A DNA stretch of 64,000 bases, taken from positions 310,001 to 374,000 of the forward strand of contig NZ_FNNG01000002.1 of assembly GCF_900106765.1 (NCBI RefSeq), read 5' to 3'. The translations under genes and the position numbers were made by a program. The stretch's first letter is position 1, and each line of letters opens with the position of its first letter. The stretch is from Tepidimicrobium xylanilyticum. Lineage in GTDB: Bacteria; Bacillota; Clostridia; Tissierellales; Tepidimicrobiaceae. The notes under the pieces were generated by a model. The model was not told the DNA's origin. It did no database searches and worked only from the letters and a program-made list of their open reading frames with translations. Shown here piece by piece: positions 58,591 through 60,745 of the stretch.

Positions 58591-59940
58591 ATGAATAAAT
58601 TGGAGTCCTTAATGGTAGGTTTACCAGAAGATGTAGAACGGTTAGTCATATATGGTCACTATTCAAAGGCACTAGAATTGATTAACCTATATATGACAAG
58701 GAATATCCCCGAAATATTAAAGGACAGGCTTAACTTTGAAAAAGATAGAATTAGAAGGCTTAAACAAGATTACATATATACCTTTGATGAAGCCCTATCT
58801 TTAGCAGAAAGCAAAATAAAGAATTTTACCAAGGAAGAATTGGAATATTTAATGGATAATAGATATGCTGATTGGATTTACATAGATGGTAAAATTACCC
58901 TTCATAAGAGATTCTTACAAAACTCCTTAAGAGTCCATCCTACTTTAAAGTCTAGGCTTCTTGAGCCTATAGAAGAACCAGCTAGCATACTTGATGAAAC
59001 CATAGATGAAATAATGAATAAAGGTGAAGTTAAATATTTCTTCCATGTTAAAACTGGTTTAAAACTAAAAAGGAATTTGGCTAGAAAAGGAGAAAAAATA
59101 TTAGTCCACTTGCCTATACCAAGAAAAGCTCAACAGATAAAAAATATTAATATAATTAGCACATCCCATGAACCAAAGGCTATCTCCTACGAAGAACACC
59201 CTCAAAGAACCATTTTTTTTGAAGAGATTGTCAAAGGTGACGATGAGTTTACCGTTGAATATTCCTATGAAAGCTATATCAAATATAGGAAACTAGAGAA
59301 AGCTAAGGTTTCTGAAAATCAGCCAACCTTTTATACAGAAGAGTATCTACCCCATATTCGATTTTCTCCTTTTCTAAGGGAGTTAGCTAAAGAAATTGTT
59401 GGCAGTGAAAGCAACCCATTGGTTAAAGCTAGGAAAATTTACGACTATATAACTAAAAATGTTCAATACTCCTATGTTAGACAATATGCCGCCATTATCA
59501 ATGTTCCTGAATATGCAGCTTATAATCTAAAAGGAGATTGTGGCATTCAAGCCATGTTATTTATTACCCTATGTAGAATAGTTGGAATCCCTGCAAGATG
59601 GCAATCTGGGTTGGTAGTAAATCCTAATTATATAGGCTGTCATGACTGGGCAGAGTTTTATATTGAACCTTATGGCTGGCTGTTTGCTGACCCTTCCTTC
59701 GGTGGAAGTGGGCTTAGAAATAAGAATGAAAAGCGATGGAATTTCTATTTTGGACATGTAGATCCCTTTAGGATGGTAGCCAATTCTGAATTCCATTACA
59801 ATTTCTATCCAAAAAAGAAATTCTTAAGGCAAGACCCCTATGATAATCAAGAAGGGGAGATGGAATATTTAGATAGACCCGTATTCCATGACGAATATGA
59901 TGTAATACAAGAGATTGTTGAGGTTAGGAAAATAGAGTAA
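58591..59940 (+). CDS. Transglutaminase-like domain protein
   Basis: This 449-residue soluble protein has an N-terminal helical region (about 1-130), a beta-rich domain (about 145-240) and a transglutaminase-like domain (about 265-400). The full triad is present: Cys317 in KGDCGIQAMLF, His351 in CHDWAEFYI and Asp367 in FADPSFGG. Family members act as cysteine peptidases or cross-linking enzymes. No signal peptide or membrane helix is visible, so it seems cytoplasmic. The ATG follows TTGGAGGG. It is transcribed away from nrdJ as a single gene. Confidence 0.87.
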   Translation: MNKLESLMVGLPEDVERLVIYGHYSKALELINLYMTRNIPEILKDRLNFEKDRIRRLKQDYIYTFDEALSLAESKIKNFTKEELEYLMDNRYADWIYIDGKITLHKRFLQNSLRVHPTLKSRLLEPIEEPASILDETIDEIMNKGEVKYFFHVKTGLKLKRNLARKGEKILVHLPIPRKAQQIKNINIISTSHEPKAISYEEHPQRTIFFEEIVKGDDEFTVEYSYESYIKYRKLEKAKVSENQPTFYTEEYLPHIRFSPFLRELAKEIVGSESNPLVKARKIYDYITKNVQYSYVRQYAAIINVPEYAAYNLKGDCGIQAMLFITLCRIVGIPARWQSGLVVNPNYIGCHDWAEFYIEPYGWLFADPSFGGSGLRNKNEKRWNFYFGHVDPFRMVANSEFHYNFYPKKKFLRQDPYDNQEGEMEYLDRPVFHDEYDVIQEIVEVRKIE

Positions 59941-59959
59941 TGTGTAGCTCATCTACACA
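59941..59959 (+). terminator. Short hairpin directly after the transglutaminase gene
   Basis: Perfect 7-bp arms TGTGTAG and CTACACA with a five-base loop begin at the base after the stop codon. No T run follows, so it is a weak terminator candidate or a 3' stabilising hairpin. Confidence 0.45.
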
Positions 59960-60036
59960 AATTATGCATTTCGAATCGCAACAGTGACACTTGTGTTTAT
60001 AAATTGTGAATTATCTATATATAAATATCAAAACTT

Positions 60037-60242
60037 GGTGGTAGTCACAACATATTTGAGAAGAACACCACCTCCAATTAAAGATTCAAAAAGTATCCAA
60101 CTAAGGGAAAAAATTGTCTAGGTTTGTACTGTTTGAGCGAAGCAAGTTTACAAACCTATTTTTCCCTTATCGTGATATTGGCCAAATCTGGAGCCGAAAA
60201 TGCTGTTCTTTATAAGTATGCCTAGGACTACCACCTTTTTCT
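60037..60242 (+). ncRNA. Candidate structured noncoding RNA (about 200 nt), unnamed
   Basis: Nested complementary segments form one long rod. A 10-bp closing stem, GGTGGTAGTC (60037-60046) with GACTACCACC (60226-60235), is followed inward by five further helices. CATATTT pairs with AAGTATG (60051/60214), AAGAACA with TGTTCTT (60061/60204), CTCC with GGAG and AGATT with AATCT. TAAGGGAAAAA then pairs with TTTTTCCCTTA (60102/60159), and TAGGTTTGTA with TACAAACCTA (60119/60149). A GCGAAGC mini-hairpin caps it. Helices are separated by balanced internal loops, and the closing stem is followed by TTTTT on the plus strand. No ORF fits. A DNA-level palindrome such as a MITE is the alternative. Confidence 0.6.
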
Positions 60243-60247
60243 ATTGA

Positions 60248-60745
60248 CTAAACATTGTTCCAATCGATGTATTCGTTTAAAATATTCACAAATTTTATAA
60301 AGTATTCCTTCTCTAATTCTGTAAATCTACCTTTTTCTGGACTATCTAAGTCTAGTACTCCATAAACCCTATCTTCCTTAATAATTGGGATGACCAATTC
60401 AGAATTAGAAGCTTCGTCACAAGCAATATGTCCTGGGAATTGATGAACATCTGGAACCAATTGGATTTCTTTTGTTTTTACAGCTGTTCCACATACTCCT
60501 TTACCTATTCCTATCCTATTACAAGCAGGAAGGCCTTGGAATGGTCCTAAAACTAGCTCTCCATCTCTTAATATGTAGAATCCAGCCCAATTTAGCCTTT
60601 CTACACAGGCCATGATAATAGCTGATGCATTAGATAAATTGGCTATATCATCTTTCTCTGAACTCAATTGGGATTTTAATAGCATATTCATATATTTTAG
60701 TCTTTCCTCTTCATTCATCTTTTTAATAGGATCTAATTTAAACAT
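60248..60745 (-). CDS. msrC: Free methionine-(R)-sulfoxide reductase (GAF domain)
   Basis: This 165-residue GAF protein has the fRMsr signatures NWAGFYILRDGELVLGPFQG, the cysteines in PACNRIGIGKGVCG and HIACDEASNSELVIPI, and GVLDLDSP. It reduces free methionine-R-sulfoxide in the cytoplasm using three conserved cysteines, all visible. The ATG follows AAAGGAGAG. It ends six bases from the structured element on the opposite strand and lies 15 bases after a lipoprotein gene. Confidence 0.92.
   Translation of the reverse strand: MFKLDPIKKMNEEERLKYMNMLLKSQLSSEKDDIANLSNASAIIMACVERLNWAGFYILRDGELVLGPFQGLPACNRIGIGKGVCGTAVKTKEIQLVPDVHQFPGHIACDEASNSELVIPIIKEDRVYGVLDLDSPEKGRFTELEKEYFIKFVNILNEYIDWNNV

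Follow-up and report, generated by a model that had tools for sequence, protein, structure and literature searches.

A folded element between convergent genes of Tepidimicrobium xylanilyticum is probably a collapsed copy of a mobile DNA hairpin present in about one fifth of sampled genomes of its order

The gap between two convergent genes of Tepidimicrobium xylanilyticum contains a long folded element, and the question raised by this locus is whether the fold is maintained as RNA or as DNA. The window, that is, the whole stretch of 64,000 nucleotides that was analysed (contig NZ_FNNG01000002.1, positions 310,001 to 374,000 of the forward strand), had been given an initial annotation in which this element was described as a rod of 200 nt with nested helices, internal loops and a GCGAAGC tip and taken for a structured RNA, with a dispersed mobile element (MITE) named as the alternative. 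The features of the locus, in positions of the window, are the following.

58591-59940, plus strand: transglutaminase-like gene (PF01841), the convergent left neighbour.
59941-60247, no strand assigned: 307-nt intergenic region bounded by the stop codons of the two convergent genes; its counterpart in the sister genome G001, which lacks the element here, measures 33 nt.
59941-59959, no strand assigned: small hairpin TGTGTAGCTCATCTACACA; a hairpin occupies the same position in the empty site of G001, and the insertion lies just beyond it.
60037-60235, no strand assigned: whole hairpin element, delimited by its fold and by a two-piece alignment to a double rod of G001.
60037-60046, plus strand: left side of the closing stem, GGTGGTAGTC, from sequence and fold.
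60226-60235, plus strand: right side of the closing stem, GACTACCACC, from sequence and fold, followed by TTTTT at 60236-60240.
60137-60143, plus strand: tip GCGAAGC, from the sequence, belonging to the DNA mini-hairpin class GC-GN(N)A-GC, which is found on this strand in 53 of 74 family tips.
60049-60222, minus strand: match to the covariance model R1, at 76.5 bits on the minus strand versus 31.3 bits on the plus strand.
60248-60745, minus strand: GAF-domain gene (PF13185), the convergent right neighbour.

The rod is present where it had been annotated. Its closing stem, GGTGGTAGTC paired with GACTACCACC, encloses nested helices and internal loops up to the tip, and its fold is more stable than that of every shuffled sequence: RNA folding of 60020-60260 yields -68.9 kcal/mol versus a shuffle mean of -43.1 (z -5.6), a value that none of 200 shuffles attains, and DNA folding of 60037-60236 yields z values of -5.1 and -5.3 for the two strands (0 of 200 shuffles each). 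The promoter-like boxes proposed beside it find no support in a scan of 59900-60320, which returns three sites, all on the minus strand, compared with 2.0 ± 1.5 in shuffled sequences. Of the proposed terminator-like end, the TTTTT after the closing stem is confirmed, and a scan of the same interval returns no simple terminator-like site, a result that covers simple sites only, as a long rod preceding a T-run falls outside its reach. Membership of the raiA-motif RNA had been suggested from the length of that RNA, near 200 nt and similar to that of the window element; the rods are unlike that RNA in being dispersed and mobile with pairing statistics of the DNA type, and an Rfam scan of the whole window returned no family at the gathering cut-off, raiA included. 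At permissive E-values the window copy and six family loci matched Rfam only far below the cut-off, for the most part to microRNA precursors of plants or animals. A search for the rod in viral contigs, phages and plasmids gave no match, and no described repeat of this kind was found in the open-access literature among the matches listed.

The model R1, with 66 pairs, was derived from an alignment of 30 rods (A1) and applied with thresholds of E ≤ 0.01 in genomes of the window's family and E ≤ 0.001 in genomes of the order. Matches are found in 15 of the 20 genomes of the family and, across the order, in 37 of 199 genomes representing 26 of 78 genera, 15 of the 37 belonging to the window's own family. 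A single genome, the window's own, is matched among 391 drawn from the class, in a draw that also held order members without a match and in which stricter filters were used. At the DNA level, G001 (the sister genome) and 16 of the 20 genomes in the family contain relatives, some as short matches only; apart from the window copy itself, no full-length DNA match occurs in its genome, where R1 finds eight places. Matches to the rod pattern were also found in Clostridium sp. Cult1 and Cult3 and in Tissierellia MAGs (seven stretches). On the preferred reading, the folded element of the window is a collapsed copy of a mobile DNA hairpin, and that hairpin is present in about one fifth of the sampled order genomes.

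Covariation among the homologues, a check that the initial annotation had itself proposed, is strong and identifies a conserved folded element. RNAalifold on A1 reports changes on both sides in 34 of 45 pairs, and in the 66-pair structure 48 pairs (249 cells) have changed on both sides, a level that 0 of 500 shuffles reached. RNA helices, however, tolerate G-U pairs and do not tolerate A-C. Mismatches of the two kinds were counted in 74 rods, obtained from 125 matches in 69 sources (a selection among loci already collected) after removal of opposite-strand overlaps and identical sequences, and the 4571 paired cells contain 103 G-T and 101 A-C. A G-T pair read from the opposite strand is an A-C, so the parity speaks against RNA for both strands alike. 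The counts are 48 versus 44 in the 40 best rods, 55 versus 57 in the 34 others, and 49 versus 42 in the 48 best-kept pairs; the strictest subset, consisting of the best-kept pairs of the 40 best rods, leans towards G-T (23 versus 14, P 0.19), and the counts are compatible with parity in every subset (P 0.19 to 1.0). Alignment A2 was fitted to the R1 structure and A1 was not. By the same route through MAFFT and alifold, A1 gives 36 versus 29 (45 pairs) and TPP riboswitches of the same order give 70 versus 0 (19 pairs), the control being 30 high-scoring sequences of one RNA family with only 19 consensus pairs. With departures counted solely at pairs dominated by Watson-Crick combinations, the figures are 20 versus 0 for TPP and 36 versus 29 for A1.

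The tips agree with the pairing counts. On the strand running from inner to outer arm, 53 of 74 have the form GC-GNA-GC or GC-GNNA-GC, compared with one on the other strand, and the motif occurs 0 times in 16292 nt of arms with both strands counted. The loops comprise 26 GNA and 27 GNNA; the GNRA form accounts for five of the 27 and a pyrimidine stands at the third position in the other 22, so these are not GNRA loops. GNA and GNNA loops closed by two G-C pairs are described, in the available part of one study, as exceptionally stable DNA mini-hairpins (PMC4686876). As far as sequence comparison can tell, the pairing pattern says that the rod is kept as folded DNA and not as RNA, and the annotation of the window element as a structured RNA is not supported, since its helices lack any preference for G-U over A-C and its tip loops obey the DNA mini-hairpin rule.

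A rod unit of about 176 nt consists of outer arm, tip hairpin and inner arm, and its helices are separated by unpaired bases that are conserved; over the 74 rods the mean conservation is 1.03 bits in 43 unpaired columns and 0.95 bits in 132 paired columns. Eleven pairs of neighbours closer than 400 bp occur among 83 places in 15 genomes, a list copied by hand from the R1 matches in family genomes with the best strand only, and ten of them are +/- with the outer arms outside. The eleventh is a same-strand combination of two short matches in G009, and none is -/+. Inverted pairs, counted with members that are partial or cut by a contig end, number three in G009, two each in G001 and G004, and one each in G000, G002 and G003. 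Two other arrangements were observed. In locus L065 (G004:C152), hairpins near 272-287 and 976-991 containing TGTTTCACGTGAAACA, which we take to be a match to the parS site, bracket a double rod; in locus L196 (387-559 and 2140-2312; G077:C88), two similar rods in the same orientation have one gene between them and are flanked by what we read as flagellar genes.

The window copy is aligned to a double rod of G001 in two pieces, as follows.

60037-60097, plus strand: piece of one rod's outer arm (bases 1-61 of the window copy), 82% identical to bases 1-61 of the G001 double rod.
60094-60235, plus strand: piece of the other rod, with inner half-arm, tip and complete outer arm (bases 58-199 of the window copy), 86% identical to bases 312-454 of the G001 double rod.
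60094-60097, no strand assigned: TATC, contained in both pieces where the two alignments overlap and the likely deletion junction; a second comparison gives the same breakpoint.

The overlap of the two pieces at TATC implies that about 250 bp between two TATC copies were lost. On this alignment the window copy is an inverted pair of rods collapsed by deletion, and its ends are both ends of the pair.

The site between the transglutaminase and GAF genes was compared in ten genomes, with the presence of a rod judged by eye. In G001 the 33-nt gap contains only the small hairpin; rods are found in the gap of G000, G002 and G018, and the other seven genomes lack one. The GAF gene beyond the rod of G018 (87% identical) identifies it as an occupied case of the same gap. 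Because position and orientation differ among these three rods, they are read as separate insertions; alternatively, old inheritance with loss could account for rods in the same gap of three of ten genomes. The rod-free region that follows the transglutaminase gene in G019 (locus L241) contains CGTGGCAGTTT, which resembles the outer flank of that genus' rods and may be what a lost copy left behind. A second site is occupied by a double rod in each of G001 and G009. Its matched flanks are separated by only 23 to 146 bp in ten other genomes; elsewhere they are more widely spaced, lie on different contigs or match only in part, and the 642 bp present at this place in G004 contain no match to the model. 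In G081, which belongs to another family, at least six rods are near-identical but differ in their left flanks; four of these rods are complete and two are cut by contig ends. One rod lies inside an element of about 575 bp with both inverted ends visible (L183:4063-4637), namely GAATATGTCGTC and the reverse complement of GACACATTATTC. In this element a second motif, GTCATCCTGAG...GAAGGATCTTGA, adjoins the rod, and a similar motif is seen beside the rods of L180 and L181. Several contigs end in rods or beside them. In the gap between fabG and acpP, gene names that are our reading of the sequences, the rods of G076 and G109 (L187:4292-4465 and L189:4189-4366; two genera) are opposite relative to the genes, and a second orientation flip at a shared site is observed between G088 and G109. 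Inversion of the hairpin in place was considered for these flips and set aside: the same stem sequence is found at other loci too, and independent insertion is thus equally possible.

On the observed structure, DNA-type covariation, dispersal, empty site, inverted pairs and the two-piece match behind the deletion origin, the window element is probably a copy of a miniature mobile DNA element, non-autonomous and functioning as a folded hairpin of DNA. A trans-acting enzyme would recognise the hairpin as single-stranded DNA or as an extruded cruciform and move the rod, the compensatory changes would reflect selection for the DNA fold, and template switching between the arms perhaps helps to keep them matched. 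The alternative of the initial annotation, a dispersed mobile element, is the better reading; the target-site duplication expected of it is recognisable by eye neither in G081 nor at the window site, where the copy is diverged and collapsed.

The alternative that survives best, although it is doubtful, is that the rod is an ordinary MITE, a deletion derivative of an IS, in which template switching or arm conversion alone keeps the palindrome and no fold is selected. Bacterial MITEs are dispersed, lack coding capacity, and have inverted ends and a palindromic fold. The rods share these properties: their copies are dispersed and non-coding, with empty sites in relatives, inverted ends are visible in the one G081 copy, and sequences like ATGTGTCGT occur outside rods of the window's family. 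Template switching, a published route to compensatory changes in the part of the source available (PMC8794818), could by itself yield pairing without a selected fold. By itself, however, it or arm conversion should erase the unpaired bases, yet these are conserved, and the tips keep one strand-specific, DNA-stable loop class, two properties in which the rods are unlike MITEs. A longer autonomous copy, which an ordinary MITE would lead one to expect alongside a duplicated target, was not found in either search: in ten genomes, end patterns gave 67 matches versus 83 in a reversed control, and in four genomes the G081 end sequence gave only further rod copies and weak matches. The rod family agrees with MITEs only in part, and it resembles REPINs in its doublets and departs from them in size and tag.

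It is unlikely that the rod belongs with REPIN-like elements and owes its mobility to a REP-associated tyrosine transposase (RAYT). In the available parts of the accounts consulted, REPs are 20-40 bp long with a GTAG or CGTC tag at one end (PMC3733652) or 21-65 nt long (PMC6006769), some classes having bulged stems as the rods do, and REPINs are inverted REP doublets linked to RAYT transposases (PMC3116915). According to the same parts, the rods resemble REPs and REPINs in being intergenic, non-autonomous, arranged as inverted doublets (ten of the eleven close neighbours, outer arms outside, with a spacer) and predicted to form hairpins in single-stranded DNA (PMC3116915, PMC3733652, PMC6006769). 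A GTGG consensus is also present outside the outer arm in the window's family. Against this, a rod spans about 176 positions instead of 20-65 nt, and GTGG lies about ten bases off the stem, in place of a GTAG or GT[AG]G at its foot, and yields no consensus over all 74 rods. Because REPINs are linked to Y1 transposases, Y1 (PF01797) was tested as the partner. Matches occur in 29 of 37 rod-bearing genomes versus 105 of 162 without rods (P 0.12), and weak-scoring Y1 proteins occur in most genomes of the window's family; however, eight of the 37, among them G081 with its recent copies, have no Y1 match, and a Y1 transposase as a required partner is not supported by this distribution. No transposase or recombinase was thus linked to the rods.

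The surroundings of the rods were tabulated from a hand-made list of 64 sites with flanks at hand, in which double rods are counted once and the orthologous sites of G121 and G139 separately. The genes on either side are tandem at 36 sites, convergent at 17 and divergent at two, with five further sites in short, probably spurious frames and four at the edges of contigs. Rods mostly follow closely on a gene: for the 53 sites that have a neighbouring stop codon, the nearest lies a median of 58 nt away. Background gaps of at least 60 bp in wide loci (n = 92) are tandem in 70 cases, convergent in seven and divergent in 15, so that rods show an excess of convergent (P 0.0004) and a deficit of divergent settings (P 0.03). 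These P values are rough, because the background consists of 26 wide loci chosen for rods or rod-pattern matches, with reading frames called crudely. At tandem sites the outer-to-inner strand has the coding sense in 25 of 36 cases (P 0.03), a bias for which a transcribed function could be an alternative cause. In two species of one genus a rod (L180:4705-4880 and L181:4232-4407) lies within a glycolytic gene cluster, between genes that we take, from protein reading, to be pgk and tpiA.

Selection as RNA, whether of a structured noncoding RNA or of a cis-regulatory one in operons or 3' regions, would fit the strong covariation, the location of copies near gene ends and inside gene clusters, the sense bias at tandem sites and the TTTTT after the window copy. 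It is nevertheless very unlikely: G-T equals A-C, so that wobble is tolerated on neither strand, the tip tetraloops are mostly GNYA and not GNRA, Rfam yields nothing at its cut-off for the window copy or six family loci, sister genomes differ in whether the rod is present, and copies adjoin unrelated genes. Equally improbable is that the rods are dispersed terminators acting in both directions, or hairpins that stabilise transcripts, selected at the 3' ends of genes: the excess of convergent sites (17 of 55 classified, with two divergent, versus seven and 15 of 92) may only mark where insertion is harmless, the same convergent pair lacks a rod in the sister genome, and T-runs downstream of rods are not general by eye.

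The mobile DNA hairpin thus remains the preferred reading, within which the window copy is probably inert, with a possible role as a terminator or transcript stabiliser between its convergent genes. A more specific proposal can be put forward tentatively, with the odds somewhat against it: the rods may be strand-specific, folded single-stranded DNA substrates of a putative Tissierellia recombinase or transposase, a giant Gram-positive system of the REPIN or attC kind in which paired 176-nt hairpins with fixed unpaired bases and an exceptionally stable DNA tip would be the form recognised. The attC sites of integrons are recognised as a folded single DNA strand, and it is in this respect, by analogy only, that the rods are likened to them. 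Strong covariation is the usual test for such elements, and by that test the rod would be filed as a new structured RNA. The count of G-T versus A-C separates it at once from the riboswitch control, and the same check is applicable to further orphan candidates with covariation. Discovery of the enzyme would make the family an example of large folded DNA hairpins acting as mobile units in Firmicutes.
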